Origin: a virus
DNA length: 64,000 nucleotides
Reading direction: 5' to 3' (one strand)
IMG/VR virus record: IMGVR_UViG_3300032116_000062
Location: 1-64,000 of that record
In this document: positions 32,632 to 60,155 of the stretch, one piece after another
Numbering within the stretch: the first letter of the stretch is position 1
How the letters are laid out: each line of letters starts with the position of its first letter
Translations under genes and position numbers: made by a program
The notes under the pieces: model-generated
The model's input: only the letters and a program-made list of their open reading frames with translations
The model's database searches: none
Told to the model about the DNA's origin: nothing

Positions 32632-35600
32632 ATGGCGATTCTTAAAAAAACATTATTTCCTGAAGATTTAGAAAAGTATAAAGTATTAATAGAGGATACG
32701 GATCCTGATAGTAGATATTTTAGAATAAGTGAACTGGATGATACATTTACAGGAGGAAAAAATGCGTTTTTAATACAGGGTTCTGAAGAGTTAGTTGCTG
32801 ATACGATTGTAAAAATTGAAATAAAAGATTCTTTAGGAAATATAATTTATCACGAACCAGGAGAAGGTATACCAGAATACTATGAGGGGGTTTCAAAAGT
32901 TGTAGCAGTTTATATATACCCAGATACGTTATTCGGTCCATGTACTATAACAATACTTGGAGAACTTAAAGAATATGAAACTATAAATGGTTTAAAAGTT
33001 CCTGTTCCATTTGAATGGCAAAATAAGTATAATGTTAGGTGGCAAAAAACTGTGAATGTAAATCCACTTTTATCAAATACTACAAAAGTTAGATTTTATC
33101 GTAGGCCAAAGGTTGATATAACTGAATCAATACTTCCGATTTATAACAGAAGTGTTGATAGAAAAACAATATCAGGATCAGTTGATGGAATTGCAATCAG
33201 TCCAATTGAAGGTGAAGATTATAAAAGTTTTAAAGGAATATTACAATATAATTTAGAGATAACAAATAATGCAAATTTATCTCAATCAATGGAAGGTGAA
33301 ATAATAACCATAAATGGGTTATCAAAAGAATATTCACCAACTATAACAGATATTACTACTAATAAAAAATGTTTAGTAAATATCCCATATTATATAACTT
33401 CTTCTTTCTATCCAAACTATGAAAGTGTAACATCATTTGCATCGGCATCTTACACAATGTCGTATGATGAACAGATACTTTTTACAAATTCAAATGTTAG
33501 TTCATCTTTTGCAAGGATTAAGATAACAGATTTAGAAACATTTGCCGGCGATGCAAGTAGAATAAAAATTTATGCAAAAAGCCGTAACTCTTTGGGAGAT
33601 TACGAATTGTTGGAAGATATTCAATTAGAAAGTAATGAATTATTAATTACCGATGAATTTAATAATGAATTAAATGTAAGAACAGGAATTTTTTCGCAAC
33701 AAATTTTAGACAACTTTTGGGTTACGCAATCATTAGAATCGGTAGTTAATTTATCATTGGATAATGAATTGTTATTTCAATCTGCAAAATTAGAAAGAAG
33801 TTCACCAATATCATCATCGACTGGATTATTTAAATTTTATTCATCGCAATCATTAGATTTTACAAAATTTACCGAATATCAATTGGATTTTACACCATTG
33901 TTAAGTTCATCTGATGGTTTGGCTAAAATAGAAATATATGCTAGTGGTTCTGCATTCGTTGATACCGATGTTGCGACAGATAATGGTAAATTATTAGGAA
34001 GTATAGAAACAACAAAAAATTTTACAAGATTTGATAAACAACAAATTAATTTTAATCCTGATTCCAACGGAACCGGAAATTTAGTTTTTTTAGTAAAAAA
34101 TGGAGATTGGCAAATATCGAATATTGCATTGAGGGCGGCCGAAGAATCTTCTTTTTCACCAAATGAAGTTACTTTAATAGCAAATGTACCTACAAGAATT
34201 AATAATGAAACGTTTGATTTTAGAGTAGAAATATATGATATTAATAATAATTACATTCCTGTAAAAATTGAAAAATCGTATACTTTTACCGGTGGAAACG
34301 ATTTATTAATCAATAGGAATTTGGAAGTAAACGTATCAAATAATTCATTTAATTTTAATACAGCATCCGCATTCCCATCTACTATCTTAATAGATTATTT
34401 TAAAACAGCTTTAACAGGTGCAGTATCATTTTACTCATCTGCGGTAGATACAACAGGTGCAGAAATTACAATTGGTGATTTAAATCCATCTACAAATTAT
34501 CCTGGATTTTTAATAGATGTGGATTCCGATACTAAACAACTTACTTTAGAAAATTTTACAGCATCTTTAGCATCAAAAACGGTTGGTGCAATATATTACA
34601 CAGCAAGTTGTGAAAATATAAATAGATATTTTACCATATTCAGAATAGATCAGGGTGCACCATCTTATTTATTTTACGCAACTGCTGATAAAAATAATTT
34701 TACATTTAATCCAGACTACTATTATAAATCTGTTGTTGATAACGATTATATTGATATTAGATTGGTGCAGCAAAACTTACCTGCAATTTTACCGCCAAAT
34801 AGTTTAAGTATATATTCGGCATCCTTATCAGGTCCAATTGTTGGTGGTGGTAAATATACCGCACCTTTACATTATGTTGGTGGTATAGGAAATGCATCTA
34901 TATATCGACTATATGTCACATCATCTGCACATCAATCATACCCTACGGGCGATGGTTATTATTTTGATCTTGGACAATCTACATATGATTTCGAATTAGT
35001 GACATCCGATGGAACGTTTACATCATCTGTGACGGTCGATGCGATTGAGAGAGGTGCAACTGCACCTATTATAAATATTTCAAATGAGAATGTATCTTTA
35101 CCTGCAACATCTACCGGAGTTATAGCTCCTGCCGCATATTCGGCCACAACGGGATCTATATCTGTAAAAGTTGTTGATAGAACTATAAATTACGCATCAC
35201 CGATAACAAATGATGCATTCAGTGCTTCAGTAAAACAATCATCAGGTGTAAGTGGTGCTAATATAAATTCAAATGCACAATATTCTATAACTCAACTGAA
35301 TTCCGATAGTGGTAGTATTACATTAGAAATTGAATATAAAAATAGTAGAGGTAGTAGTAGTTTATTTGAAAAAGAAATAAACTATATAAAAAATAAAAAT
35401 GCAGTACCAAACGTAATGATTGTTGCAACACCACAAGCACAGGCGGTACTTGCTGATCAATATGGTACACAGGCGGGTACATTATCAAATGTTACAATTG
35501 ATGCTTTGGAAGGAAATACGAGTAGATTTACATCAATGGTTATTGCATCTACTTCAGGATTTTCAACTCCACCAACCGTTAGTGGTCAAACTTTAACAAT

Positions 35601-38364
35601 GACTTCCGCTATAATGAATGCAGCTGAGGCCTCTGTTGAACTGACTGTTACACATACGGATAGTGAAGGAACTGTGGGGCAGACAAAGACTATAATAGTT
35701 AGAGCCACAAAAGTCAATACAGGTGCAAACGGATCAAATGGTTCAAATGGTTCACCGGGTGCAAATGCGGTAAGCATACAAATAAATCCACCAACACAAA
35801 CTATAACAAAATCAAATACAGGAACATATTCAGCGGTATCTCCTTTTACGGTTTTAGTAACAGAAACGGGCTCACTTTTAACATACGTTAGTGGTAATCC
35901 AACTTTAAATAATGGTGAATTTAAAATAACAAACGTATATAGTGGAAGTGGTATAACAAATGGTAATCCGGCAACATCAAATACAATAACACCAATATCA
36001 CCAACAAGCGTTGCACCATATAATACAACATTTGGTGTAACATATAAAAATTCAATTGGTATAGAATCCGTTACCATCCCATTTTCTCATAGTGTTATTA
36101 CAGTTTTAGATGGACAAACAGGACCAGGAGTCGTATTTACTGGAGTTTGGGAATCGGGCAGAGCATATCAATTTAGTTCAGGTGCCGGTACGGGCAGGAG
36201 AGATGTGGTATTATGGAGTACATCGGGTACCGCACCATACGATACATATTATGCTGCCATTAGACAGCACGTATCTGCGGGTGGTAATGTGGCTGATGGT
36301 GCTCCGCATCAAGGAAATCAAACTGGTTGGGAAAGTTTAGGCACACAAGATTTCTTTGTGGCTGCGAAAATAGGTTTGTTTGAAGAATCGTATGTACAAA
36401 ATACTTTAAACGTTGGTACTAATAATAATGGTGGAGTATCAACTGCGAATATTACATTGGCAGGTGGTACGCAATATCCATATATTTCATTGGGACAGAC
36501 TGTGCAAGGAGTTTATAATGCCGATGGAATTTATATAGGTAATGATAGTGGTAACTATAGAATGTCATTAAAGGGTGCGAATGGTGCATTGGCTTGGGAT
36601 GGTTCAAATTTAAATGTAAGTGGTGCAGTAAAAGCAACAAGTGGTGATTTTGAAGGATATATGACAGTTGCCGGCGGTAGTATGAAAATAGGAAAGGATG
36701 TCCAAAGTACAAACGATGGAATATACATTAATCCAAACAACTATTGGTATTCTAATGGTAATTTTAAAGCAGGTGGTGATGCGGGATATATGAGTTTTGA
36801 TGGAACTACCTTATTTGTATCCGGAGCAATATCATCATCCGAAGGTAGTTTGGGTGGTTGGAAGTTAACGGATTCTGCAATATATAGAGGAACAATCGGT
36901 TCTGATGATTCATTTACAAGTAATGGTGGTGATATAACATTGGGTAGTGGTTGGATATCGGCAAAGGAGTTTAGAGTTAATTCTGCAGGTAATGCGTTCT
37001 TTAGTGGAAGTATCACAGGTGGTAGTATTAATATAGGAAATGGTAAATTTATTGTGACAACTGCTGGAACTGCCACTCTTTCTGGATCAATTCATACTAC
37101 CGGCGGAACAATTGGTGGTTGGGTCGTTGATGGTGCGGTGTTGAGAGATGTTAATAGTAGAATACTTTTAAATCCCGGAACACCGTCAATTGATATTTAC
37201 GATACATCTAATGTCAAAAGATTGACTATGAAGTATGGTTTATTGACATCTGTAAACTCATCTGCAACAATTACAATAGATCCACCATCACATTCCCCAT
37301 CTTATGAAAGAATATTTAGTGGAGATGGTGAAAGAAGAAGTGGAACTTATAATTCTTTTTATGCATCCGAAGCGGGTACATATACAGGAACATATACTTA
37401 TGTAGCGGTTAATAGTGTTGCTACCACAGGACCAGCGTGGAGTGGATATTTTTCCGTATACAGATATGTGTTGATAACGGATAGTAATGATATTCCTATT
37501 GCAACTATTTCTGCAGGCGGTGATTCTGCATTTAGTAATAATGAAACTTTAAATCTTGTTGGAGGTTCTTACACATTTTATTTGACCATACCGGCGGCCG
37601 GCACATATAGAGTATATTCTGTATTAGAATATATCGCATATCCAAGTAGTTATGGATCCGGTGTATATGTGGATATAAATGCAAATAGTTGGAATGATTC
37701 ATCTTTTAATGGAAATATACAGCTTAATATAGCGGAAATTTCGGATGATGGATTTCAGGTAATTTCATCTGCAAATAGTTATTGTATAATAAAAAGAGGT
37801 GGAGTATATGCTATAGAAGCAAAAGGTGGGTTACTTATAGAAGGTAATGGAGCCGAATTATATATGGCCGGCAAAGTTCATCCATTGGTGGGTAATACAC
37901 ATGATTTAGGATCAACTGGTAATAGATGGAAAACGGTTTGGACTAATAACGCATTAAATACTACATCTGATGAACGATTTAAAAATTCAATTGAAGATAC
38001 TGATTTGGGTTTAGAATTTATCAATAATTTAAGACCAGTAAAATATAAAAATAATGCGGCTACTACTCCAAGATATCATTATGGATTGATTGCACAGGAA
38101 ATAATATCCACATTAAATGATTTTGGAAAAACAACTGATGATGTTGGATTTATTGCAAGTGCATCGGTTAACTACACCGTAGCAGAAATAGAAGAACTAA
38201 AAACCAAACCGCATTGGAGTTCAATTGAAACAGAAATAAGTGCATCCATACGACAAGAATTGGGATTATCATATACCGAACTATTATCTCCTATGATTAA
38301 AGCAATACAACAATTATCTGATAGAGTTTTGGAATTAGAAGCAAAAATAAGTGGTTCTATATGA
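32632..38364 (+). CDS. Long tail fibre with C-terminal S74 chaperone-protease
   Basis: 1,910 residues. The first 1,100 residues are Ig-like and beta-rich. A short collagen-like stretch (five G-x-y triplets, GANGSNGSNGSPGAN) lies around 1,030-1,045. About 1,160-1,260 resembles a carbohydrate-binding module (FTGVWESGRAYQF, VVLWSTSG, GWESLGTQ). Beta-solenoid-like repeats (ISGAI/SGS/GGW) follow. The C-terminus is a peptidase S74 intramolecular chaperone: TSDERFK with the S1779/K1784 dyad at the same five-residue spacing as endosialidases, then LRPVKYK and YGLIAQE. The chaperone trimerises the fibre and cuts itself off. It is preceded by a late motif and overlaps the first glycosyltransferase (ATGA). 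Confidence 0.9.
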   Translation: MAILKKTLFPEDLEKYKVLIEDTDPDSRYFRISELDDTFTGGKNAFLIQGSEELVADTIVKIEIKDSLGNIIYHEPGEGIPEYYEGVSKVVAVYIYPDTLFGPCTITILGELKEYETINGLKVPVPFEWQNKYNVRWQKTVNVNPLLSNTTKVRFYRRPKVDITESILPIYNRSVDRKTISGSVDGIAISPIEGEDYKSFKGILQYNLEITNNANLSQSMEGEIITINGLSKEYSPTITDITTNKKCLVNIPYYITSSFYPNYESVTSFASASYTMSYDEQILFTNSNVSSSFARIKITDLETFAGDASRIKIYAKSRNSLGDYELLEDIQLESNELLITDEFNNELNVRTGIFSQQILDNFWVTQSLESVVNLSLDNELLFQSAKLERSSPISSSTGLFKFYSSQSLDFTKFTEYQLDFTPLLSSSDGLAKIEIYASGSAFVDTDVATDNGKLLGSIETTKNFTRFDKQQINFNPDSNGTGNLVFLVKNGDWQISNIALRAAEESSFSPNEVTLIANVPTRINNETFDFRVEIYDINNNYIPVKIEKSYTFTGGNDLLINRNLEVNVSNNSFNFNTASAFPSTILIDYFKTALTGAVSFYSSAVDTTGAEITIGDLNPSTNYPGFLIDVDSDTKQLTLENFTASLASKTVGAIYYTASCENINRYFTIFRIDQGAPSYLFYATADKNNFTFNPDYYYKSVVDNDYIDIRLVQQNLPAILPPNSLSIYSASLSGPIVGGGKYTAPLHYVGGIGNASIYRLYVTSSAHQSYPTGDGYYFDLGQSTYDFELVTSDGTFTSSVTVDAIERGATAPIINISNENVSLPATSTGVIAPAAYSATTGSISVKVVDRTINYASPITNDAFSASVKQSSGVSGANINSNAQYSITQLNSDSGSITLEIEYKNSRGSSSLFEKEINYIKNKNAVPNVMIVATPQAQAVLADQYGTQAGTLSNVTIDALEGNTSRFTSMVIASTSGFSTPPTVSGQTLTMTSAIMNAAEASVELTVTHTDSEGTVGQTKTIIVRATKVNTGANGSNGSNGSPGANAVSIQINPPTQTITKSNTGTYSAVSPFTVLVTETGSLLTYVSGNPTLNNGEFKITNVYSGSGITNGNPATSNTITPISPTSVAPYNTTFGVTYKNSIGIESVTIPFSHSVITVLDGQTGPGVVFTGVWESGRAYQFSSGAGTGRRDVVLWSTSGTAPYDTYYAAIRQHVSAGGNVADGAPHQGNQTGWESLGTQDFFVAAKIGLFEESYVQNTLNVGTNNNGGVSTANITLAGGTQYPYISLGQTVQGVYNADGIYIGNDSGNYRMSLKGANGALAWDGSNLNVSGAVKATSGDFEGYMTVAGGSMKIGKDVQSTNDGIYINPNNYWYSNGNFKAGGDAGYMSFDGTTLFVSGAISSSEGSLGGWKLTDSAIYRGTIGSDDSFTSNGGDITLGSGWISAKEFRVNSAGNAFFSGSITGGSINIGNGKFIVTTAGTATLSGSIHTTGGTIGGWVVDGAVLRDVNSRILLNPGTPSIDIYDTSNVKRLTMKYGLLTSVNSSATITIDPPSHSPSYERIFSGDGERRSGTYNSFYASEAGTYTGTYTYVAVNSVATTGPAWSGYFSVYRYVLITDSNDIPIATISAGGDSAFSNNETLNLVGGSYTFYLTIPAAGTYRVYSVLEYIAYPSSYGSGVYVDINANSWNDSSFNGNIQLNIAEISDDGFQVISSANSYCIIKRGGVYAIEAKGGLLIEGNGAELYMAGKVHPLVGNTHDLGSTGNRWKTVWTNNALNTTSDERFKNSIEDTDLGLEFINNLRPVKYKNNAATTPRYHYGLIAQEIISTLNDFGKTTDDVGFIASASVNYTVAEIEELKTKPHWSSIETEISASIRQELGLSYTELLSPMIKAIQQLSDRVLELEAKISGSI

Positions 38365-39347
38365 TAGTTTTTATTACAACAGGTTACGGAAAAAATGTTA
38401 TAGGTGGTTCGGATATTTGGTGTAATAATTTTATCGAAAATGTTATTCCATTATTAAAGTCCGAATATAAAATAATAGTAGATAATAGGCCTTTACAAAA
38501 AGATGAAAATATTATATACACATGGCAAAATGATGAAGAAGTTGATTCTATTTTAGAAAAATGTGAAAAAATAATATTTCTACACCATTCATATAAAGAA
38601 AACCCTATAATTAAAAAGTGGTTACATAAAACGTATCTTACATTTGTTCATGCTTTTATTCCAGATATGGTAGGTTTAAAGGATGAATACGAAAACCTAA
38701 TGACCCGATTAGATTGGCATTGGCAGAAGGATATTTTAGATAACTCTGAAAATATAGTTTGGATTGGTTATGAAAATGATACTATTCACACATATTATCC
38801 ACAAACAAAAACTGTTACAAATTATTATGAATGGAAAAATAAAAAACCATTTACAGAAATAGTTAATAACAGAATAGGTTATGCGGCAAGATGTGAAACA
38901 CGAAAGAATGCGGATTATTTGGATTCATTACCTGCATATGTTTTTTCAAATGAATATGATTATAAACGAATGTTGGAAGCATCAAAAATAAATTCAGAAT
39001 TTCATATATTTCAAAAATTTGATTATAAATTTCATCAAACATTTTTTAATAAAAATTTTCAAATATTCCACGCAGCGTATACAAAAGAACCGTTTGGTTA
39101 TGCAATATTTGATGCAATAGATAATGGTAAATTACCTATAATAGATTCTCATTGGATGAAAGGAATTAAGTACAGATATAGAGCAATGAATAAACAACAA
39201 TTTCACTACCAATGGTTACGGATATTGGAAGATGGTTTTGAAAAAAATAAAAAACAATTTGATAGATTGAAAGCAGGACTTGAAAAATACACAGATAAAC
39301 AAAAATGGGTTTCAGAAATATGCAGTTACTTAACGAAATACTTATAA
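38361..39347 (+). CDS. Glycosyltransferase, GT-B (GT4-like)
   Basis: 328 residues. The GT-B opening is VFITTGYGKNVIGGSDIW (GGS turn). The C-terminal donor site reads AYTKEPFGYAIFDAIDNGKLPII, where E-P-F-G-x-x-x-x-D-A replaces the usual E-x-F-G-x-x-x-x-E-A. It probably transfers a sugar from a nucleotide donor. It overlaps the fibre stop by four bases, so fibre and transferase are translationally coupled. This makes the fibre a candidate acceptor. Confidence 0.75.
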   Translation: MIVFITTGYGKNVIGGSDIWCNNFIENVIPLLKSEYKIIVDNRPLQKDENIIYTWQNDEEVDSILEKCEKIIFLHHSYKENPIIKKWLHKTYLTFVHAFIPDMVGLKDEYENLMTRLDWHWQKDILDNSENIVWIGYENDTIHTYYPQTKTVTNYYEWKNKKPFTEIVNNRIGYAARCETRKNADYLDSLPAYVFSNEYDYKRMLEASKINSEFHIFQKFDYKFHQTFFNKNFQIFHAAYTKEPFGYAIFDAIDNGKLPIIDSHWMKGIKYRYRAMNKQQFHYQWLRILEDGFEKNKKQFDRLKAGLEKYTDKQKWVSEICSYLTKYL

Positions 39348-40096
39348 AAGAATATTTAACTAACAATCCCATACCGGATGAATCGGGAGTAGTTAAGTAT
39401 GAGCCTGTAAAATATAGATGGTCACATGGCGCAACCGATACTCATTTGGGTGATGGTTTATTAGTATATTCTTTGATAATGATGAACCGTGCAAAAGTAT
39501 GTGTCTGTATTGGTAGTGGTGGTGGGTTTATTCCACGTATAATGACGCAGGCGAGAATGGATTTGTGGGAACAAAAAATATTTGATGGAAATCCTGCAAA
39601 AGAATGGGGTGATATAGGAACAACGATTATAATTGATGCGGCAAATGGAGTTGGTGGGTTTACTGATTGGGTGGATGAAAATAGTTTTTTGAGAAATCAC
39701 TACTCACCGCAAGTTATTTTAAATACATCTGAAAGAGCTTACTATGATTATTTTGTAAGGCAAGATATAAAAATAGATTATTTACATATAGATGGTGATC
39801 ATTCCTATGAAGGAGTTAAAAAAGATTTTGAACTATACTCAACAATTATGTCAGAGAACGGAATCATTACTATACATGATACGGATCAAAAATACCATGA
39901 TACATTCTTAATCCCCAATAATCAGTTAGATCATTTTGATTCTTTTGATGGGCCCGCAAAATTTATAAATGAATTAGAAAATAATACTGAATGGAATTTG
40001 GTAAATTTAAAAAATTTCATTATGTTTGATTCAAAAAGACCGACAACTACTGGTATAGCTATAGTTACAAAAAAGAATAATAAAAAAAGTGAATAA
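39305..40096 (+). CDS. Class I SAM-dependent methyltransferase
   Basis: 263 residues from the ATG at 39305; an internal ATG at 39320 is equally possible because the first residues overlap the previous gene. Motif I is VCVCIGSGGGFIPRIM. The typical Methyltransf_24 segment IDYLHIDGDHSYEGVKKDFELY is followed by NGIITIHDTD. Relatives act on sugars or polyketides (TylF-like), so O-methylation of a sugar is plausible here. Coupled to the glycosyltransferase upstream. Confidence 0.8.
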   Translation: MGFRNMQLLNEILIKEYLTNNPIPDESGVVKYEPVKYRWSHGATDTHLGDGLLVYSLIMMNRAKVCVCIGSGGGFIPRIMTQARMDLWEQKIFDGNPAKEWGDIGTTIIIDAANGVGGFTDWVDENSFLRNHYSPQVILNTSERAYYDYFVRQDIKIDYLHIDGDHSYEGVKKDFELYSTIMSENGIITIHDTDQKYHDTFLIPNNQLDHFDSFDGPAKFINELENNTEWNLVNLKNFIMFDSKRPTTTGIAIVTKKNNKKSE

Positions 40097-40946
40097 AAAA
40101 ACAATAAGATTAGTAACTATCACAGGATCTAGAACAAACACTCTACGACATATGCTGCAGCACTATAATGCTTTGGTAGATGAAATTTTTGTTGTAGTTT
40201 ATGAATGGGAAGGATTTAGTACCTATGAATCAGTTTTAGAAATAGTAAATGAATTTCCAAAAGCTAAAATTATTAAAAAAGTTACAAAAGAAAAATATAA
40301 TTGGGAATACGTTACAGAACTATATAATGAAATAAAAAACTTATATCCAAAAGATTGGTGGATAGTATCTGATGATGATGAATTTCATATTTACTCAAAT
40401 AATTTAGATGAAATAATATCAGATTGTGAAGAATTTGGTTGGGATATGGTCCGTGGTGGTTTTATAGATAGAATCGGTATAGATGGTGAATTTGTAGAAA
40501 TACAAAAAAATAAAAATATATTTAAGCAATTCCCAATGGGTGGATTTTTTAGATACCCTATGAGTGGTGCATGTCCAAATAAAGTATGTATTATGAAAGG
40601 GTATATACAATTAACACCCGGTCAACACTACGCAATTATAAACGGACAAACTACTTGGAGATGGCAAGGGTGGAATCATCCGTTAATAGCTCCTGTGGAT
40701 AGATACAACGTACAGGTACATCATTTTAAATGGGATAGTACGTGCTCTGATAGAATAAGAGATGTAGCATCTATAAATAAGGATTATGCGTATTCAGAGG
40801 AATATAGAAAAATGTATAAAGAATTAGCAAAATCCAGATTTGTTATAGATATAAATAACGAAGATTATATGTTTGAAAATATTGGTGATAGTATAAGTGG
40901 ATATTCAAAATGGAATAAACTTTTAAATAAAATATTATCAATATAA
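40089..40946 (+). CDS. Glycosyltransferase, GT-A (GT2-like)
   Basis: 285 residues from the GTG at 40089, overlapping the previous stop by eight bases. It opens with RLVTITGSRTNTLRHMLQHYNALVDEIFVVVYEW (split over 6-40), as in Glyco_tranf_2_4-like proteins. The metal-binding motif is WWIVSDDDEFHIY. A downstream GWDMVRGGFIDRIG and a conserved-looking VHHFKWD are also typical. It probably adds a hexose from a nucleotide sugar. The transcription unit appears to end after this gene, since a new promoter follows. Confidence 0.75.
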   Translation: MNKKTIRLVTITGSRTNTLRHMLQHYNALVDEIFVVVYEWEGFSTYESVLEIVNEFPKAKIIKKVTKEKYNWEYVTELYNEIKNLYPKDWWIVSDDDEFHIYSNNLDEIISDCEEFGWDMVRGGFIDRIGIDGEFVEIQKNKNIFKQFPMGGFFRYPMSGACPNKVCIMKGYIQLTPGQHYAIINGQTTWRWQGWNHPLIAPVDRYNVQVHHFKWDSTCSDRIRDVASINKDYAYSEEYRKMYKELAKSRFVIDINNEDYMFENIGDSISGYSKWNKLLNKILSI

Positions 40947-41002: not shown

Positions 41003-41212
41003 ATGGCAGTCACTAAAAAAAATGAAGAAAGAGATCAAGAAATTTTACTCCTTGAAACCAGAAAAGTAAAGGCTTTAGAAAAAATAGCCAATTCATTGGA
41101 TGCGTTGACGATTTGGTTTGAAGAAATCGAAAAAGATGAATGGAGTGAAAGACTTCAATGGTATCTTTATGAATGGCATTCTAAAAAAATTGCAGGAGAT
41201 AAAGAAAAATAA
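41003..41212 (+). CDS. Small charged hypothetical protein
   Basis: 69 residues, helical and charged: ETRKVKALEKIANSLDALTIWFEEIEKDEWSERLQWYLYEW (split), ending in lysines. It is led by a host-like promoter and overlaps the GT7-like gene by one base. No family recognised. First gene of the unit, so it may be an early regulator or accessory factor. Confidence 0.65.
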   Translation: MAVTKKNEERDQEILLLETRKVKALEKIANSLDALTIWFEEIEKDEWSERLQWYLYEWHSKKIAGDKEK

Positions 41213-42642
41213 TGCAAAAACAAAAATTAGGAATAATTGTTCCCTATCGTAATAGGGGTGAACACTTGTCTCAATTTTTGTTGACGATAAAAAAATATTT
41301 ATCGAACACCGATATAAAGTATGAACTAATAATAGTAGAACAAGCGGATGATAAACCTTTTAATAGAGGAAAACTACTAAATATAGGTGTAAAAAAAGCA
41401 ATTGAATTTGGATGCAAGTATGTAGCTCTACATGATGTGGATATGTTGCCCATTGATGTAGATTATTCTTATGTCCATAGACCTACACATTTAGCTACAA
41501 AATTTATTTCTGATAATACTGAAAAAAATATAGTATTTGATGAGTACTTTGGTGGTGTAACTTTATTCCCTATAAATGAGTATTTAAAAATAAATGGATA
41601 CTCTAATGAGTATTGGGGATGGGGGTATGAAGATGATGATTTGCTTTTTAGATGTAAAGAAAATTCTTTAGAATTAGATACAAAATATTATCCTGTAAAA
41701 ACACGTAATACGGCTGGATTATATTTTAACGGAAAAGATAGTTATATAACATGTCCAAAACCATTTGGATTGGATAACTATACAGTATTCGCATCCTTCG
41801 AACCTGATGAAATAAAGTGTGATGAAAATTATGAGTTTGATGAATATGTGGTATTTTCTATACCAGGATATGATACAACGATAACATATAATTCATTTAA
41901 AAGATATAAATTTGAAACTTGGTCAAAATCAAAAAATGTATTTAGTTTAAAATCTAGCATTGCACCAAAATTAAGAACAGTCATAGCGGTCACAGTAAAC
42001 CAATACGATAGGATAATAAAACTATACCAAGATGGTGTATTGGTCGATTCCCTAGAAATAGATTCAAAGGAAAGATTAATGCCTTACTTTAATCAGGAGT
42101 TTTTTTATATAGGAAAAACCACTACATCCGAATTTAATAGTAGACGACCATTCAAAGGAACAATAGATTACTTTGCAATATTTAATCACAGTTTAGAAGA
42201 AGCGCAGATAAAAGAAATATCAAATAATAGATATATGGGCCTGACTGATAACTATGGTGATTATATTACTTCACATTGTTTGGAAGTTTGTTATGACATG
42301 AAGATAAGTAAAAAAGATAAATTGATAGATTTATCTTCAAATAATAATGATGCTATTATAAATAATTGTGAAAGAGTTCCTGTTGTTGATATTGATATGA
42401 TAACGGAAATAAAGATTCCTTGGAGAAAAGCCGGAACTTTTAAATTATTACCACATAAGGAAAATGGATTTTTTGAAAACAAATGGACATTTACCGAAAC
42501 AAGAAAAAATCAAATAAAATTTTATAACGATGTGTTGGGAGGAAAAACAAACTGGAGAAGAGATGGAATGGATACATTGAATTATAAAGAAATAAGTTAT
42601 ACAGACATGAAAGATTACCACTATTTATCAGTATCATTATGA
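41212..42642 (+). CDS. GT7 (beta-4-galactosyltransferase)-like enzyme with inserted LamG domain
   Basis: 476 residues. GT7 motifs in order: VPYRNR (10-15), FNRGKLLN (50-57), HDVDMLP (74-80, DxD metal site), YFGG near 113, and WGWGYEDDD (135-143). A LamG/concanavalin-like domain of about 240 residues follows (TAGLYFNGKDSYITC, FEPDE, KLYQDGVLVDSL, GTIDYFAIFNHSL). After it comes what looks like the GT7 C-terminal segment (RKNQIKFYNDVLGG, RRDGMDTLNYKE). The lectin fold is thus inserted inside the catalytic domain. Expected to transfer Gal or GalNAc-like sugars. A tandem paralogue follows with a four-base overlap. Confidence 0.8.
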   Translation: MQKQKLGIIVPYRNRGEHLSQFLLTIKKYLSNTDIKYELIIVEQADDKPFNRGKLLNIGVKKAIEFGCKYVALHDVDMLPIDVDYSYVHRPTHLATKFISDNTEKNIVFDEYFGGVTLFPINEYLKINGYSNEYWGWGYEDDDLLFRCKENSLELDTKYYPVKTRNTAGLYFNGKDSYITCPKPFGLDNYTVFASFEPDEIKCDENYEFDEYVVFSIPGYDTTITYNSFKRYKFETWSKSKNVFSLKSSIAPKLRTVIAVTVNQYDRIIKLYQDGVLVDSLEIDSKERLMPYFNQEFFYIGKTTTSEFNSRRPFKGTIDYFAIFNHSLEEAQIKEISNNRYMGLTDNYGDYITSHCLEVCYDMKISKKDKLIDLSSNNNDAIINNCERVPVVDIDMITEIKIPWRKAGTFKLLPHKENGFFENKWTFTETRKNQIKFYNDVLGGKTNWRRDGMDTLNYKEISYTDMKDYHYLSVSL

Positions 42643-44102
42643 AATTAGGAGTTTGCGTACCATATAGAAACCGAGAAGCACATTTAAGAAGATTTGTTCC
42701 AAAAGTTACAGAATTTTTAAACAATGCTGGAATAGAACACACCATCTATCTGGCTCATCAATGTGATGATGAGTTGTTTAATAGAGGGTTAATGAAAAAC
42801 ATTGCAGCAAAGCATGCATTTGATGATGGATGTGATTATATTGTATGGCATGATATTGATATGATACCTGAAGATGATAGTTGTGATTACTCTTTTCCAA
42901 AAGATAATCCTGTTCATATTGCTGTCAACATATCCCAATCTGATTATATGTTAAAGTATGAGGAATACTTTGGTGGAGCCGTTTTATTTACAAAAGAACA
43001 GGTACAAAAAACAAATGGGTATTCAAATGATTATTGGGATTGGGGAATGGAGGATGATGACTTATTTTGGAGATGCGTTAAAGAAGATATGGTAGATAGA
43101 ACAAAACTTGATTATAATATTAAAAAAATGGTCGGGGTATTTGATGGCAAGGCATCATATATGGAGATACCAAACAGATTCGGACATATTTTGAATAATT
43201 CACATACGGTTTCTATTTTAGTAAAAGCAGATCAGCAAATTGAAAAAGTCCCAATATGGTTGATTGGTGATAATGATAGAAAGTTTGTTGAATATCCTAT
43301 ATTAAGAAAGCCGGGTTATGATTGGGGAATATCATTTAATAATAGTAGAGCGTATACTGCAATGTTATGGAATAGTAATAAAGAAAGTATATACCAATGG
43401 TTTAAAAGATATGAAAATGAGTGGACTTGGGTAACTATGGTAGTGGATACGATAGATAAAAAAATGCACCTATATTTGAACGGAAGAGAAAGTTCTGCAC
43501 GAAACGGAACAGGAACAGAATCGCCGGTAACATATACAGGATCGTTAAAAAGATATGGTTCAGAACCATTTTATATTGGGCATACTCCAAGTATAAGTTC
43601 AAACGAACCAAACGCATTTTTTAAAGGACAAATATCTGATATAAAAATTTGGGATAGAGTACTATCCGAAACAGAAGTCAGAAATTTACACAAAGAATAT
43701 CCAAAAGATAGTTTGTTAGTTCATTATGATTTTCAAAATATAGATAGAGTTAGTAGAAAACTCGTCGATAATATTAGTGGATTTCATGCTGATTTTTCCA
43801 GAATTTCATTCAAAACAGAAGATATAACAATACCATATGTTGCGTTACCATATAGAAAAAATGGTAGATTTTTTTGTTTGCCACATAAAACGGAAGGATT
43901 GATTAATGAGGGTGGAATGGAAAAGTGGGCAAAAGGTGAAACTACTGCAAGAAATGAACGCAGATATGTTTTAGAAATGCAACAAGGTAAAATAGATTAT
44001 AAAAACGATGGTATTTCTAATGTTGATGAAAAATATGAATTAATTGGAGTTGATACAATATACGATGTACATAAAATGATAAATGTTAAATGTATAAAAT
44101 AA
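42639..44102 (+). CDS. GT7-like enzyme with inserted LamG domain (paralogue)
   Basis: 487 residues, same architecture as the upstream gene: VPYRNR (7-12), FNRGLMKN (47-54), HDIDMIP, YFGGAVLF, YWDWGMEDDD. A LamG-like domain follows (GVFDGKASYMEIP, MHLYLNGRES, FKGQISDIKIWDRVL, LLVHYDF), then a GT7-like tail (NERRYVLEMQQG, YKNDGISNVD). WDWG replaces the usual WGWG. The two copies are clearly diverged, suggesting different donor or acceptor use rather than a recent duplication. Confidence 0.8.
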   Translation: MKLGVCVPYRNREAHLRRFVPKVTEFLNNAGIEHTIYLAHQCDDELFNRGLMKNIAAKHAFDDGCDYIVWHDIDMIPEDDSCDYSFPKDNPVHIAVNISQSDYMLKYEEYFGGAVLFTKEQVQKTNGYSNDYWDWGMEDDDLFWRCVKEDMVDRTKLDYNIKKMVGVFDGKASYMEIPNRFGHILNNSHTVSILVKADQQIEKVPIWLIGDNDRKFVEYPILRKPGYDWGISFNNSRAYTAMLWNSNKESIYQWFKRYENEWTWVTMVVDTIDKKMHLYLNGRESSARNGTGTESPVTYTGSLKRYGSEPFYIGHTPSISSNEPNAFFKGQISDIKIWDRVLSETEVRNLHKEYPKDSLLVHYDFQNIDRVSRKLVDNISGFHADFSRISFKTEDITIPYVALPYRKNGRFFCLPHKTEGLINEGGMEKWAKGETTARNERRYVLEMQQGKIDYKNDGISNVDEKYELIGVDTIYDVHKMINVKCIK

Positions 44103-44106
44103 AAAT

Positions 44107-45525
44107 ATGGCAGAAAGTAAAATAATAAAAGGTGAAAATCCACTATATGTTCAAGTAAAAAATGAATTAGATTCTGTGGGAAAGGGAATGTGTTTAGCAA
44201 AATGGACACAAGTAACAATGCAACTACAAAGTGGCCACAACCACTCATGCCATCACCCAACCACACACAAAATTTCAGAAGTAGAGATAGCACGAAACCC
44301 ATCAGCATTACATAATACTAGATTTAAAAAACTAAAAAGAAAAGAGATGTTAAGTGGCCAAAGACCGGCCGAATGTGAATATTGTTGGAACGTGGAAGAT
44401 AATTCTGATAGATTTTCTGATAGAGTTTTTAAATCATCAGAGAGTTGGAGTTGGGAGCACAAAGAAGAAATTTTCAATTCTGATTGGAGAGATGATTATA
44501 ATCCAAAGTATGTAGAAGTTGCATTTAGTAATACTTGCAATTTTAAGTGTTCTTATTGTGGCCCTTCTTTTAGTACCACTTGGATGGAAGAAATAGAGCA
44601 ATATGGTGGATATCCTACATCTGATAATTTTAATGATATAACATGGATGGTTAGAGAAAATAAAATGCCAATACCACAAAGGGAACATAATCCATACGTT
44701 GAAGCATTTTGGAAATGGTGGCCGGAACTATATCACAATCTACATACATTCAGAATAACAGGCGGAGAACCTTTATTATCTAAAGATACTTGGAGAGTAT
44801 TAGATTATATTATTAGTGAAAAAAATCCAAATAAAAATCTTAAGTTAGCAATCAATTCGAATTTGGGAGTACCGGATGCTCTGATTGATAAACTAATTGA
44901 AAAAATTAAAAAAATAGAAGATGAAGGTAGAGTTAAAGAATTGATTTTATTTACATCTGCCGACACGTGGGGAGAGCAGGCAGAGTACATAAGAACGGGA
45001 TTGGAGTTCAATCGTTTTTGGGATAACATTAATAAAATATTATTGAATTGCCCAAAGATAGTTATAACATTTATGGTAACATACAATGCCTTATCTGTAT
45101 TTAAATACGATAAACTAATAAAAGAAATTTACAAATTAAAAGAAACCTACGCAAGTCCTTATCGGTATTGGAACTCTGCAACGTTTTTAGATTCATCATA
45201 TTTGAGATATCCGATGCATCAGACCGTGCAAGTATTACCACATCAATTTGCAGAAAATATAATGAATCAAGCAAAACTTGCAACATTCTTTTCTACACCA
45301 TCTTTCAATTCAACGCAAATTGGTTATAGTGATGTAGAAGTTCAAAAAATAAAAAGAATTTATGATTGGATGTTAGCACCGCAAGATGCTGAACAGCAAA
45401 TGAAAAATAGACATAACTTTTATAAATATTTTAGTGAACATGATAGGCGTAGAGGAACCGACTTTTGCAAAACATTTCCTGAATTAGAAGAATTTTATAA
45501 TTTCTGTTCAACAATTACAATATGA
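44107..45525 (+). CDS. Radical SAM protein (twitch-type)
   Basis: 472 residues. The 4Fe-4S/SAM motif is C144-x3-C148-x2-C151 (NTCNFKCSYCG), with ITGGEPLL near 216-223. An N-terminal cysteine/histidine-rich region (HNHSCHHPTTHK; ECEYCWNVEDN) may bind a second cluster. The family resembles phage-encoded twitch-domain radical SAM proteins of unknown substrate. Within this operon, dehydrogenation, epimerisation or methylation of a sugar or peptide is possible. It overlaps the next gene by four bases. Confidence 0.82.
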   Translation: MAESKIIKGENPLYVQVKNELDSVGKGMCLAKWTQVTMQLQSGHNHSCHHPTTHKISEVEIARNPSALHNTRFKKLKRKEMLSGQRPAECEYCWNVEDNSDRFSDRVFKSSESWSWEHKEEIFNSDWRDDYNPKYVEVAFSNTCNFKCSYCGPSFSTTWMEEIEQYGGYPTSDNFNDITWMVRENKMPIPQREHNPYVEAFWKWWPELYHNLHTFRITGGEPLLSKDTWRVLDYIISEKNPNKNLKLAINSNLGVPDALIDKLIEKIKKIEDEGRVKELILFTSADTWGEQAEYIRTGLEFNRFWDNINKILLNCPKIVITFMVTYNALSVFKYDKLIKEIYKLKETYASPYRYWNSATFLDSSYLRYPMHQTVQVLPHQFAENIMNQAKLATFFSTPSFNSTQIGYSDVEVQKIKRIYDWMLAPQDAEQQMKNRHNFYKYFSEHDRRRGTDFCKTFPELEEFYNFCSTITI

Positions 45526-46271
45526 GCATAAACATCAATACAAATAATTTATATTTGATATTACCATCAAATGTATCATTTAAAGAATCTAATATATCAG
45601 ATTCTATGCAAGGTGATTTTACTTTATTCGCTAGAGTAAAATTGGATAAAGAAAAAATAACAGAAAAAGAAGCATTTATCATATCAAGAAGTGGAATGCA
45701 TTCTGGTATATCGGTATTTAAAAATGAAATAGGAAAGGTATTTTTACAATACACATATTGGTTTGAAAACCCGGAAGATAAAACAAATTCTATAAAACAA
45801 ATCCACATAGAATTACAAGATTCTATGTTTGAAGATTTTATAGATGTTTATATGACAAATAGTGATGATAAATCAAAGATAACCTGTCATTTAAACGATG
45901 AAATAGTTGGAAGTATGATTTATGCTGGATTAGATAAAGTAAATTATACAGATTCCCCATATTGGTTTGGGTGTGGTAGTATGTTTACCGAAGAAGATGC
46001 GAGAAGCATAGGTGATTTTGAATATCATATTGTATTTTCGGTAAGTAAAAAACTTACAATGTTACAAATAAAAGATTTAGTAGAAAATTATGATAAAAAA
46101 TATACTAAAATTATTTTTGAAACATATAAAGTGTTTAACTCCGATTTATCTTTTGCAAAAGATTTTGCATTTTTTTGTGATTTCGATGTAACAAATAGAT
46201 ACAAAGTTTGGAATTATGCATTCAACGGAAACTACCCACAAATTTATATAGAAGGCAACGTATATTATTAA
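45522..46271 (+). CDS. Free-standing LamG/concanavalin-like protein
   Basis: 249 residues, beta-rich. The middle region follows the LamG layout: MQGDFTLFARVKLD, IISRSGMHSGISVFKN, a strand with ITCHLNDEIVGSM, YWFGCGSMFTEED, then FEYHIVFSVSKKLT. It has no catalytic motif. It resembles the lectin-like insert of the GT7 proteins upstream more than the baseplate LamG. Possible carbohydrate-binding partner of the glycosyltransferases. Confidence 0.55.
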   Translation: MSININTNNLYLILPSNVSFKESNISDSMQGDFTLFARVKLDKEKITEKEAFIISRSGMHSGISVFKNEIGKVFLQYTYWFENPEDKTNSIKQIHIELQDSMFEDFIDVYMTNSDDKSKITCHLNDEIVGSMIYAGLDKVNYTDSPYWFGCGSMFTEEDARSIGDFEYHIVFSVSKKLTMLQIKDLVENYDKKYTKIIFETYKVFNSDLSFAKDFAFFCDFDVTNRYKVWNYAFNGNYPQIYIEGNVYY

Positions 46272-46272
46272 T

Positions 46273-47214
46273 ATGAAAATAGCAGTATGTTTTAGTGGCC
46301 AATGGAGAACTGGCAATTATTGTTATGATAATCTAAAAAGGTTTTTCGGATTATTATATCCTTATTGTGATTTTTTTATACACACATGGGATATAAATAA
46401 ACAAAAGTGTTATAATCTATCAAACGTATTTTCAAAAGAAACAAAATTAACGGATGATGATATAAATGAACTAAAAAGTAAATATAATCCGAAAAAAATT
46501 ATTATAGAAGATTACAATCATATTCATAATACGTTACAAACGTATGAAAAAACGGCATATAAAGATGTTAAAGTTTTTGATATAATTCAACCTCTTTGGT
46601 ACTCTTTTTATAAAAGTGTAGAACTAAAAAAAGAATATGAAAAGGAAAATAAATTTGAATATGATTATGTAATCAAATTAAGACCTGATATAATATTCAA
46701 ACCAAATAGAAGATTAGTACAGGATATTGAGTTATATTTTGATGAAATAAATTCTGGAGAATTTTATATAGAAAATTTAATGAGAGAGTGGACGGTTGAT
46801 AATACAACAATTGATGATGTTTATTTTTTATCAAAATCAAAGCAAATGAATATTGCGGCCGAATATCATAATCATTGGTTAGAATGGGGTATCTTATCTG
46901 ATACATTTTATGGATTTTTAAGGCATGCACATTTAAATAATTTAAAAATAAGTAATTATAAAAAAAGATATTTAGGTGGGGATCCTTTTTATTCTGTTAT
47001 GAGACCGGAATGTTTAAAATACGGAACTACGACTGAAGAAGAATTTGATAATGTTGTAGTTTGCGAAAATTACTATTATGGTGACCCAAATTCAAATTCA
47101 AAATCGCCGAAAGGGTTTTATATACATTTGTTAAAAAATCTATGCAATATAGATGATACTACCGAATATTATGTTGATGAGTTGGATATAAACCAAAATA
47201 AAAAAATTATTTAA
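46273..47214 (+). CDS. SGQxRT-family protein, copy 1 (glycosyltransferase-like)
   Basis: 313 residues. It opens with KIAVCFSGQWRT (2-13), then YCDFFIHTWD (about 36-45), then PLWYSFYKSVELKKEYE and FEYDYVIKLRPDIIF (about 110-145). The same four elements recur in three other genes here (47217, 48022, 54427). The pattern (short Rossmann start, D-x-V-I-K-x-R-x-D) suggests a GT-A-like transferase, the last motif acting as an acidic metal site. No named family can be assigned with certainty. Confidence 0.6.
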   Translation: MKIAVCFSGQWRTGNYCYDNLKRFFGLLYPYCDFFIHTWDINKQKCYNLSNVFSKETKLTDDDINELKSKYNPKKIIIEDYNHIHNTLQTYEKTAYKDVKVFDIIQPLWYSFYKSVELKKEYEKENKFEYDYVIKLRPDIIFKPNRRLVQDIELYFDEINSGEFYIENLMREWTVDNTTIDDVYFLSKSKQMNIAAEYHNHWLEWGILSDTFYGFLRHAHLNNLKISNYKKRYLGGDPFYSVMRPECLKYGTTTEEEFDNVVVCENYYYGDPNSNSKSPKGFYIHLLKNLCNIDDTTEYYVDELDINQNKKII

Positions 47215-47216
47215 TT

Positions 47217-48020
47217 ATGAAAATTGCAGTTTGTTTAAGTGGGCAATTAAGAACTTGGAAAGATGCATATAAAACTTGGGGAACATTTTTTGATGAACTA
47301 AAAAAGTCATCAGAACTACAAGGCGAAGAATTAGAAGTAGATTATTTTGTGCATACTTGGAGTTTTAATAGTACACCATTCGCAGTCTGGACAAAAAAAC
47401 AATGGGATGCCGGAAAATATCATACCGGATTTGTTCAACCACCAACCGAAGGTGTAACTAATGATGAACTTAATGAATTTTTAGAAACGATAAAACCGAA
47501 GCAGCATATTATTGAAAATGTGTGGAAAAGTTCAACTAGAAAAGAAAATTTAGATGATAGGATTCAATGGAGATTAAATGACCCTACAAAATGGGCAACT
47601 ATTAGTTGGGCAGGTTCCCAATTATATGGAATCATGCGTGCCGCAGAGATGAAACGAAATTATGAATTAGGAAATGGATTTGAATATGATATGGTTATTA
47701 GAATGAGAATGGATTTGAGTTTTGATTATCTAAATCGTATGATATTTGTCAATGATTTTCAAAAACCAAAAGAAAAGACACTATATTCCGTACATAGTTT
47801 TAATACAGAATATTTTCCGCATGATGCGGTTGGTGATATATTCTTTTATGCAGATAGTTTTACATATGATATTATAGCAAATGTTTATAATTATCTACCA
47901 CAAATATCGCCAGATATATTTCCTCCTGATATAAAAGTAGAATCTATACTAGCATATGTAATACGAATGTTTGATATTAAAAATATAAGATTAAAAATTG
48001 ATCCAGATATAATAAGATAA
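47217..48020 (+). CDS. SGQxRT-family protein, copy 2
   Basis: 267 residues. Family elements: KIAVCLSGQLRTW, VDYFVHTWSF, LYGIMRAAEMKRNYE and FEYDMVIRMRMDLSF. The later PHDAVGDIFFYADSFTYDII stretch matches copy 3 (CFDDVFFYADSPTMDII), so copies 2 and 3 are closest. It is separated from copy 1 by two bases and from copy 3 by one base. Confidence 0.6.
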   Translation: MKIAVCLSGQLRTWKDAYKTWGTFFDELKKSSELQGEELEVDYFVHTWSFNSTPFAVWTKKQWDAGKYHTGFVQPPTEGVTNDELNEFLETIKPKQHIIENVWKSSTRKENLDDRIQWRLNDPTKWATISWAGSQLYGIMRAAEMKRNYELGNGFEYDMVIRMRMDLSFDYLNRMIFVNDFQKPKEKTLYSVHSFNTEYFPHDAVGDIFFYADSFTYDIIANVYNYLPQISPDIFPPDIKVESILAYVIRMFDIKNIRLKIDPDIIR

Positions 48021-48021
48021 T

Positions 48022-48918
48022 ATGGGAAAGATAACAACATATAATATAGCAGTCTGCTTAAGTGGACAATCTCGTACTTGGAGAACCGCCAAAGAAAATA
48101 TACTTAACTATTTTGATGTAAAAATTAATACGCATAAAAATTGTAAAGTAAATGTCGATTATTTTATTCATACGTGGGATACCAATAGTTATAGAGATAA
48201 GACTCAACCACGTTGGCAAAATACGGATTATAAGATAGATAATCCAAATGAAGTAGAAGAAATAAAACTTGCTTTTAATCCAAAAATGATGGAATATGAA
48301 TCGTTCAATCCAAATATATGGAATGAAGCTTGGGAGGGTATGTTTTATAGTTTTATGAAAAGTATAGAACTAAAAAAGAGATACGAACTATCAACGGATA
48401 TACACTACGATATGGTTATCAAAACCAGATTTGATATTAACTTTTTACAAGAAGGAGTAAATAAATATGGATTACCTATAAACAAATTTTATGTACATCC
48501 GTTACAACCATTTACAGCGTATGCATCATCACCAACACCTACAAGATTTCCAAATGAATTTAATCAAGTTTGTTTTGATGATGTTTTTTTCTACGCAGAT
48601 TCACCAACCATGGATATCATTGCACACATATATCGGTGGTATAAAAAGTTGATGCAAAAAGGAAGATTACAAAAAGTTACAGGCGAATTTGTTGATTTTC
48701 CTGAATTTTATTATGGACCTGGAACACTATTACAAAAATATATTACTAACTGGAATATACAACCATATGCAGAACATGCCAACCCGTATTATGTTGTAAG
48801 AAAGGAAGCAGAAGATAAAGGATTGCATAGTATTGATAATTGGAAAGAAATATATGATATATCCAGAGATTGGTATGAGAATGGATATTTTGAAAAATCA
48901 AAAGCAGATATACATTGA
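48022..48918 (+). CDS. SGQxRT-family protein, copy 3
   Basis: 298 residues. Elements: NIAVCLSGQSRTWR, VDYFIHTWDT, MFYSFMKSIELKKRYE and HYDMVIKTRFDINF, then DDVFFYADSPTMDIIAHIY. The C-terminal half is longer than in copy 2, with a GPGTLLQKYI segment. Last member of the tandem run of three; a 53-base gap follows without a clear promoter. Confidence 0.6.
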   Translation: MGKITTYNIAVCLSGQSRTWRTAKENILNYFDVKINTHKNCKVNVDYFIHTWDTNSYRDKTQPRWQNTDYKIDNPNEVEEIKLAFNPKMMEYESFNPNIWNEAWEGMFYSFMKSIELKKRYELSTDIHYDMVIKTRFDINFLQEGVNKYGLPINKFYVHPLQPFTAYASSPTPTRFPNEFNQVCFDDVFFYADSPTMDIIAHIYRWYKKLMQKGRLQKVTGEFVDFPEFYYGPGTLLQKYITNWNIQPYAEHANPYYVVRKEAEDKGLHSIDNWKEIYDISRDWYENGYFEKSKADIH

Positions 48919-57277: not shown

Positions 57278-57899
57278 AGATACAAAAATATACGGATCAT
57301 TTTCTAAAACACCCGGAAATAATGGGTGTTTGTTTTTCAATGCTGCATTTGAAAAGTATAATATAAATGCTATATATAAATCTTTTTATTCTGATAACAT
57401 AAAAGAAACCATACAATCCGTCAGACATTTGGGATTTAGTGGTTTTGCATTGAGCATGCCACATAAAGTTGATGTAATACCTTATTTGGATTATATGGAT
57501 GATATATCTAAAGAAATAGGTGCGGTTAATACTGTGATAAATGTGGAAGGTAAACTTACAGGATATAACACAGATTTTTTTGGAATTGTTGATTTTTTTT
57601 CTTATATTAACGTAGGAAAAAATGTAAATATAATTGGAAATGGTGGTTTTAGTAAAGCAATACAATGTGCTTGTAAAAATATGAATATAGAATATAAAAT
57701 ATTTGGAAGAAATGATATAGATAATATATCTTCGATACTGAATGAAACTTTTATAAACGCTACTCCAATTGAAATAAAATCAATTTATAGTAGGGTAATA
57801 GATTTAAGACCACATACACATTATGGAAAAATAGTTGCCGAAATGCAAGCAAAATATCAATTTAAAATATACACAGGAATAGAATATGGCACTACCTAA
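57258..57899 (+). CDS. Shikimate dehydrogenase-like protein (AroE family)
   Basis: 214 residues from the ATG at 57258; the longer in-frame reading from 57207 lies deep in the previous gene and is rejected. AroE pattern: SFSKTPGNNGCLFNA-like opening (KTP in place of HSxSP), GFSGFALSMPHKVDVIPYLD with the catalytic Lys (PHK), IGAVNTVIN and GYNTDFFG (catalytic Asp), then NIIGNGGFSKAI as the NAD(P) loop. About 55 residues shorter than AroE. It may oxidise a quinate-, shikimate- or inositol-like polyol. Overlaps the fusion gene by 20 bases. Confidence 0.82.
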   Translation: MSTQINKDTKIYGSFSKTPGNNGCLFFNAAFEKYNINAIYKSFYSDNIKETIQSVRHLGFSGFALSMPHKVDVIPYLDYMDDISKEIGAVNTVINVEGKLTGYNTDFFGIVDFFSYINVGKNVNIIGNGGFSKAIQCACKNMNIEYKIFGRNDIDNISSILNETFINATPIEIKSIYSRVIDLRPHTHYGKIVAEMQAKYQFKIYTGIEYGTT

Positions 57900-58854: not shown

Positions 58855-59186
58855 ATGATACTTTGTGTTATAGACCAAAGGATGTTGAACATTTGGGTGG
58901 AGATAAATACCACCATTGTAAACCAATAAAAGAAATGATAGACCTATCTAATAGTTTATATGATAAAGGTCACACTATATATATTTATACGGCTCGTGGT
59001 ATGAAAACATTTGATGGCGATGTAAAGTTAATATATGAAAAACTATATGATTTAACTTTAAAGTGTTTGGATGAGTGGGGTGTAAGACATCATGGATTAT
59101 TTATGGGTAAAATTCATTATGATTTACTTATAGATGATAAAGCAATGGATTTGGAAACAGCAAAAAAAGAATTAATAAAAATATGA
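58827..59186 (+). CDS. HAD-superfamily phosphatase (capsule-biosynthesis type)
   Basis: 119 residues. HAD motif I is FAFDLDDTLC (D8-x-D10), motif II IYIYTARG (Thr), and motif IV LLIDDKAMD, with a lysine before it (GKIHYD). The small C0-type, capless fold matches phosphatases in sugar-nucleotide clusters. It would remove phosphate from a sugar phosphate intermediate. Overlaps the previous gene by 28 bases and the next by four. Confidence 0.85.
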   Translation: MSKIFAFDLDDTLCYRPKDVEHLGGDKYHHCKPIKEMIDLSNSLYDKGHTIYIYTARGMKTFDGDVKLIYEKLYDLTLKCLDEWGVRHHGLFMGKIHYDLLIDDKAMDLETAKKELIKI

Positions 59187-60154: not shown

Positions 60155-60155
60155 T

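Follow-up and report, generated by a model that had tools for sequence, protein, structure and literature searches.

Paired GT7-type glycosyltransferases of a T4-like phage with a LamG domain inserted in the predicted catalytic fold

The 64,000 nucleotides (nt) analyzed here, hereafter the window, are positions 1 to 64,000 of the virus record IMGVR_UViG_3300032116_000062 of IMG/VR. Two tandem open reading frames (ORFs) of this window encode putative GT7 glycosyltransferases that we named P1 (41212–42642, 476 amino acids, aa) and P2 (42639–44102, 487 aa). They share 4 nt in an ATGA-type overlap and, like their parts described below, lie on the + strand. Both pass the curated Pfam cut-offs for Glyco_transf_7N (PF13733), Glyco_transf_7C (PF02709), and Laminin_G_3, the last with 44.4 bits for P1 and 61.1 bits for P2 (cut-off 27.6). 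In a phmmer search of the PDB, their residues 1 to ~150 match the animal galactosyltransferases B4GALT1 and B4GALT7 with E values of about 1e-27 to 1e-28, whereas searches of PHROGs and NCBIfam returned no useful family for either protein. The series of motifs reads FNRG, HDVDM or HDIDM, WGWGYEDDD or WDWGMEDDD and, after the insert, LPH and DG(L/M/I). The original prediction had placed two tandem GT7-like transferases at 41212–44102, had noted FNRG, DxD, and W(G/D)WG-EDDD in both, and had described about 240 residues of LamG-like sequence breaking into the catalytic domain. Genes, motifs, and interruption all stand; the length was underestimated, as the insert measures 247 aa in P1 and 254 aa in P2.

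In P1, the N-terminal GT7 piece (41212–41682, residues 1–157; profile and Pfam) corresponds to the nucleotide/donor half, with the DxD motif, the tryptophan loop, and the xED helix. The donor/metal motif D75-V-D77 (41434–41442) is invariant in alignment A2 and in the 29 P1 rows of alignment A1, which also contains 24 P2 rows. W135–D143 (41614–41640), the W(G)WGYEDDD segment, includes the tryptophan loop and the catalytic xED, and the equivalents of W314, E317, and D318 are present in 29/29 P1 rows. The inserted LamG/ConA-like sandwich follows (41683–42423, residues 158–404; Pfam core 174–334, Laminin_G_3 E value 2.5e-11). The C-terminal GT7 piece (42424–42642, residues 405–476 and stop; profile) would form the strand of the C-terminal histidine, the lid, and the DG(L/M) helix. 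Its histidine H415 (42454–42456), a predicted Mn2+ ligand, is nearly invariant in A2 and found in 29/29 P1 rows. P2 is organized in the same way, with an N-terminal piece at 42639–43091 (residues 1–151; profile and Pfam), a LamG/ConA-like sandwich at 43092–43853 (residues 152–405; Pfam core 169–347, Laminin_G_3 E value 1.8e-16), and a C-terminal piece at 43854–44102 (residues 406–487 and stop; profile). Its DxD motif D72-I-D74 (42852–42860), its W(D)WGMEDDD segment W133–D141 (43035–43061), and its C-terminal histidine H416 (43884–43886) are each conserved in 24/24 P2 rows. About 30 relatives carry upstream a third GT7-LamG paralogue, P0 (e.g., L003:2773-4227 and L008:2815-4263), which is absent from the window.

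We built a GT7 profile from 32 bacterial and viral proteins with an uninterrupted GT7, most of them 219–285 aa long; it took the place of a global alignment of P2 with one of these proteins (L089) in which the C-terminus was wrongly positioned. P1 is matched in two pieces, model positions 4–158 by residues 2–157 (206 bits) and positions 158–222 by residues 405–470 (25 bits). Likewise, residues 2–151 of P2 match positions 7–154 (174 bits) and residues 406–469 match positions 158–213 (12 bits). Since the two pieces join at the same model position, the order is GT7-LamG-GT7, as had been forecast for both chains, with almost no loss at the junction. The same combination of N- and C-terminal matches was found in 75/80 P1-type rows, in 24/32 P0-type rows, and, although the C-terminal match of P2 is weak taken alone, in 81/81 P2-type rows. 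In these three classes, the junction falls nearly always within model positions 153–160, and the best score among 4000 shuffled C-terminal halves was 8.7 bits. The histidine of the LPH motif that follows the insert aligns with the Mn2+ ligand of B4GalT1 (H347 in the bovine enzyme, H343 in the human one), and a DGL-type motif is present there too. Uninterrupted relatives of 219–223 aa share the C-terminal sequence found after LamG. At the sequence level, these comparisons confirm that the segment after LamG is the remainder of GT7, aligned metal-ligand histidine included. A LamG merely appended to GT7 and followed by an unrelated domain would have refuted the original prediction. The 12 bits of P2 and the Pfam GT7 models stopping short of this segment might speak for it, but it is hardly credible against a profile match whose two pieces join at the same place of the model in the homologues, with decoys at 8.7 bits or less, together with an aligned histidine in 53/53 P1 and P2 rows and the same C-terminus in uninterrupted proteins; we rejected it because of the two-piece match. 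P1 and P2 are thereby confirmed, as far as sequences can tell, as complete GT7 enzymes, each interrupted at one site by LamG, with a predicted activity.

AlphaFold2 models, made with alignments of homologues of P1 and P2, are confident for both chains, with a predicted local distance difference test (pLDDT) of 90.8 and a predicted template modeling score (pTM) of 0.88 for P1, and values of 91.8 and 0.85 for P2. Foldseek comparison with the PDB ranked beta4GalT7 and beta4GalT1 first (4lw3, 4irp), followed by the LamG of PAPP-A, the pentraxins, and the carbohydrate-binding protein 4dqa (E values of about 1e-9 for these LamG matches), and the insert is a beta sandwich in the models. Most GT7 alignments span the first half only, because the domain is split by the insert; the alignment of P1 with 4irp_A has 204 columns. 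The models have the GT-A fold completed by the segment that follows LamG. Profile order, uninterrupted relatives, and models thus agree with the proposed location of LamG within the catalytic domain. In the P2 model, a single strand (153–169) runs continuously from the last GT7 strand to the first LamG strand; secondary structure and pTM suggest that it is a rigid join between the two domains.

The insertion site was located by counting residues in the uninterrupted L089 between the tryptophan of the W loop (human W310) and the C-terminal histidine (human H343). By this count, the break corresponds to about residues 330–333 of human B4GalT1, just ahead of the lid. In B4GalT1, the lid comprises residues 338–365, M340 and H343 bind Mn2+ upon lid closure, and residues 328–334 of the homodimer are near the acceptor of the partner subunit (PMC6198961). 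The C-terminal tail of GT-A enzymes, HV3, bears family-specific acceptor motifs (PMC7185993). A break at ~330–333 therefore places the insert at the base of the acceptor gate.

The catalytic residues are strongly conserved. The equivalents of D252, D254, Y289, W314, E317, D318, and H347 are identical in the 53 P1 and P2 rows of A1, and that of D319 is kept in 49 of them. At the Y289 position, both proteins have a tyrosine, which we take to be the Gal-type residue of B4GALT1; UDP-Gal is consequently the predicted donor, this tyrosine being the sole pointer to Gal. Neither a signal nor an anchor was seen at the N-termini of P1 and P2, which both begin at GT-A strand 1, so the two proteins probably work in the cytosol. 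In P0, FNY replaces FNR, and the equivalents of W314, D318/D319, and H347 are often lost, but LamG is retained. P0 is possibly a pseudo-enzyme partner.

The LamG fold is often a carbohydrate-binding one. Laminin_G_3 matches 62 of 65 homologues at E ≤ 0.001, and a PGYD loop is conserved in the domain. LamG diverges faster than the N-terminal part of GT7 (mean identity of 56% vs. 79% in P2 and of 37% vs. 59% in P1), and it is kept in all 194 GT7s of the cassette loci described below. In the LamG phylogeny, two changes suffice to account for the three classes P0, P1, and P2, so that the inserts track their own catalytic domains, and one branch separates the inserts from stand-alone LamGs. Because the insertion site adjoins the acceptor lid and because LamG evolves faster, recognition of the acceptor glycan by LamG is plausible.

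This design is common to hundreds of uncultivated aquatic phages. By scanning IMG/VR, we identified close relatives of P2 on at least 229 viral contigs. In each of the 80 loci retained (two of them cut by contig ends), P2 is preceded by a P1-type gene, mostly with a spacing of −4 or −1 nt. No match to P1 or P2 was obtained by tblastn against the 50,697 GenBank phages of INPHARED, so that this set includes no known cultured phage with such a protein. Among 84,980 bacterial and archaeal species genomes, the full GT7-LamG-GT7 architecture was found only on contigs of metagenome-assembled genomes (L083–L088), three of which also encode the radical SAM protein of the cassette. On one of these contigs, which appears bacterial (L085:4941-11076), the GT7-LamG gene is followed by genes for a GT2 protein, an ABC transporter, and an HlyD-like protein, and this group possibly glycosylates a peptide or polymer destined for export. 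GT7 is, as the original prediction noted, best known from animals, yet GT7s without an interruption are common in both bacteria and viruses. When viral sequences were scanned, the bacterial GT7 L089 as lone query gave no match, whereas alignment A3 recovered 467 relatives, uninterrupted viral GT7s among them. In the GT7 phylogeny computed with the insert removed, the LamG-bearing proteins all lie beyond one branch, with a support of 84 in the SH-like approximate likelihood ratio test (SH-aLRT), and form P0, P1, and P2 clades. This topology is consistent with one insertion of LamG followed by duplication into three paralogues without domain swapping. The insertion is old and widely inherited, not peculiar to the genome of the window. 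No GT7 with an inserted LamG turned up in the open-access literature that we searched, which does not prove that none has been published.

P1 and P2 belong to a conserved gene cassette on the + strand. Their constant downstream partner is a twitch-domain radical SAM protein (44107–45525; NF033640, 355 bits for a cut-off of 170, E value 5.4e-106), with a homologue in 80/80 loci. It is followed by a stand-alone LamG (45522–46271) that is kin to the inserts and has no Pfam match of its own. The profile of this stand-alone family recognizes it with 241 bits and also matches the inserts of P1 and P2, and hhalign aligns family and insert with a probability of 99.7% (E value 1.6e-25). The stand-alone LamG comes directly after the radical SAM gene in 94 of 108 nonedge cases, and 94/94 stand-alone LamGs adjoin a radical SAM gene, a count that describes the cassette loci gathered around P2 and not all LamGs. 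The pair recurs and is at times repeated (e.g., L001:7463-11484). In L039:4175-6919, a P2-type GT7-LamG and the radical SAM protein are read as one 914-aa frame, either a natural fusion or a frameshift. The cassette radical SAM was not found in nine tested records with an uninterrupted GT7. Upstream of P1 are genes for a GT2-like glycosyltransferase (40089–40946; Glyco_tranf_2_4, E value 0.0018, under the cut-off; 77/80 loci), a methyltransferase (39305–40096; Methyltransf_24, E value 3e-10; 74/80 loci), and a possible GT4-like glycosyltransferase, so called from its appearance and with no Pfam family (38361–39347; 56/80 loci). Sugar-nucleotide genes for an SDR epimerase, an RmlC-like 3,5-epimerase, and an E1/TPP-type protein are located at 59183–61336, and such genes often lie close to the cassette (58, 50, and 46 of the 80 loci, respectively).

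The cassette is preceded on the same strand by a gene for a long tail-fibre-type protein (32632–38364) with a C-terminal S74 (endosialidase) chaperone domain (PF13884, E value 1.9e-10, residues 1779–1832), a candidate acceptor. Among the 29 records possessing an S74 fibre gene, 26 have it 4.3–10.5 kb upstream on the same strand, for 4.5 expected and a maximum of 12 under random placement. By its gene content, the genome carrying the cassette is that of a T4-like tailed phage: the 102,380-bp record encodes a T4-like set with Portal_T4 (E value 2e-69), Terminase_6N, a phrog_138 major head protein, and a baseplate wedge.

Other genes of the window deserve mention. Three tandem paralogues of 313, 267, and 298 aa starting with (K)IAVC(F/L)SGQ occupy 46273–48918; the first, outside all Pfam families, matches phrog_13607, of unknown function. 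Short pieces of thiamine-diphosphate enzymes, of E1/TPP type (60707–61336) and of transketolase pyrimidine-binding type (63250–63792), resemble a split transketolase inside the sugar operon, which also contains a shikimate-dehydrogenase substrate-binding domain (57207–57899, E value 1.2e-16). Distant from the cassette, a Nol-like carbamoyltransferase (8650–10353; phrog_1601, E value 5.5e-120) is likely another glycan-tailoring gene.

We propose, with about even confidence, that P1 and P2 are galactosyltransferases that work in the cytosol as part of a phage glycan cassette, in which LamG is an acceptor dock and the virion is the target. Both would be intact GT7 galactosyltransferases, dependent on a metal and inverting in mechanism. 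A LamG/ConA-like domain would have entered their common ancestor at the strand-turn leading to the acceptor-gating lid, and duplication and divergence would then have given paralogues of differing linkage or acceptor, making presumably successive or different linkages. They would act within a cassette of methyltransferase, GT2-like transferase, P1, P2, twitch radical SAM protein, stand-alone LamG, and sugar-nucleotide enzymes. As the presumed dock, LamG would keep either the carrier protein or the glycan growing on it next to the acceptor cleft, and a UDP-sugar would supply the Gal, or related sugar, that the GT7 core adds to the acceptor. The stand-alone LamG might play an equivalent docking role for the radical SAM enzyme. 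The product would be a virion glycan that gives the phage a sugar coat of its own. As its target, a protein of the virion synthesized at that stage is the most likely, the neighboring S74-chaperoned fibre being the first candidate. Processive transfer, also envisaged originally, found no support. Several points weigh against this proposal. We infer the acceptor, the donor, and the LamG ligand alike, and LamG domains mediate protein-protein contacts too. Proximity to the fibre may just mark a variable module, and phage glycan genes can act on the host surface as well. The neighborhood counts come from 80 retained loci that include several to many near copies and are thus not independent, and that were collected through P2, which biases them; support for the single-origin branch is moderate. 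The open-access literature searched yielded nothing relevant on tail-fibre glycosylation by phage enzymes or on phage twitch radical SAM proteins, which is no proof of absence elsewhere.

It is conceivable, if rather improbable, that a single LamG subfamily provides the docking tag for the whole of this widespread cassette, lodged within the galactosyltransferases and present as a separate subunit of the radical SAM enzyme; all these enzymes would then act on the same growing glycan of the virion, and one of the steps would be a radical modification of a sugar or of the carrier protein. With a comparable, low probability, LamG might instead be an assembly module that replaces the GT7 homodimer interface and joins P1, P2, and the radical SAM/LamG pair into a substrate-passing multi-enzyme complex. 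The often carbohydrate-binding nature of the fold argues against such a module. So does the faster divergence of LamG relative to the catalytic domain, which is easier to reconcile with a ligand that varies than with a partner surface that stays fixed. Nevertheless, three or more neighboring proteins of the cassette have related LamGs, and these partners are always the same; the degenerate P0 has lost catalytic residues but not its LamG, as might be expected of a structural partner; and P2 and the radical SAM protein share a frame, possibly by frameshift, in L039:4175-6919. The insertion point also falls in the dimer-interface segment of B4GalT1, about residues 328–334 (PMC6198961).

Slightly less probable still is an alteration of the host envelope glycan (lipopolysaccharide/O-antigen type) during infection, for instance to exclude other phages, in place of a modification of the virion. 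The epimerases, the RmlC-like protein, the several glycosyltransferase-like genes, and the Nol-like carbamoyltransferase at 8650–10353 do resemble surface-polysaccharide pathways, but among the annotated genes none was recognized as a flippase, a polymerase, or a membrane-anchored transferase. Moreover, the S74 fibre is a conserved neighbor, and the remainder of the record encodes portal, head, terminase, and baseplate proteins, a structural set of T4-like type. Finally, GT7 is not, to our knowledge, a DNA-modifying family. Glycosylation of hypermodified phage DNA by P1 and P2, a known role of phage glycosyltransferases (cited in PMC12619734), is very improbable: the cassette is grouped with structural and sugar genes, and no base-hydroxymethylating enzyme was recognized in the annotation, which covers some but not all ORFs of the record.

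A galactosyltransferase-type fold with an LamG acceptor dock, as we propose, would have gained an accessory recognition domain within its core, at the acceptor gate, apparently in one event, and kept it through duplications. It offers a natural case for the acquisition of acceptor specificity by GT-A enzymes, and points to an uncharacterized phage glycan pathway (GT7-LamG, twitch radical SAM, stand-alone LamG) beside the tail fibres.

P1 and P2 share with B4GALT1 and B4GALT7 (CAZy GT7) the GT-A fold and the FNR, DxD, W-loop, EDD, and C-terminal histidine elements in the same order, with 28–35% identity over about 150 residues. However, in animals these enzymes reside in the Golgi as type II membrane proteins and lack an inserted domain, whereas P1 and P2 have no membrane anchor, and a LamG of ~250 aa breaks their turn ahead of the lid. 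The uninterrupted GT7s (L089, L115, L165, L182, L188, and L203) have the same catalytic core and C-terminal segment but no LamG; L089 (221 aa) is ~51% identical to the N-terminal part of the cassette GT7s. With Laminin_G_3/pentraxin-type LamGs (PAPP-A, CRP, SAP, 4dqa), the inserts share a beta-sandwich at the level of the fold only (11–17% identity), and these LamGs are terminal or tandem modules, whereas those of P1 and P2 lie within an enzyme domain. In lactose synthase, alpha-lactalbumin bound near the acceptor site changes the acceptor choice of B4GALT1 (PMC6198961). Alpha-lactalbumin is, however, a separate lysozyme-like protein, and its likeness to the inserts would be a functional one. 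In the GT27 polypeptide GalNAc-transferases, a ricin lectin steers the choice of acceptor; unlike the LamG of P1 and P2, it is appended C-terminally, has an unrelated beta-trefoil fold, and serves enzymes with a retaining mechanism.

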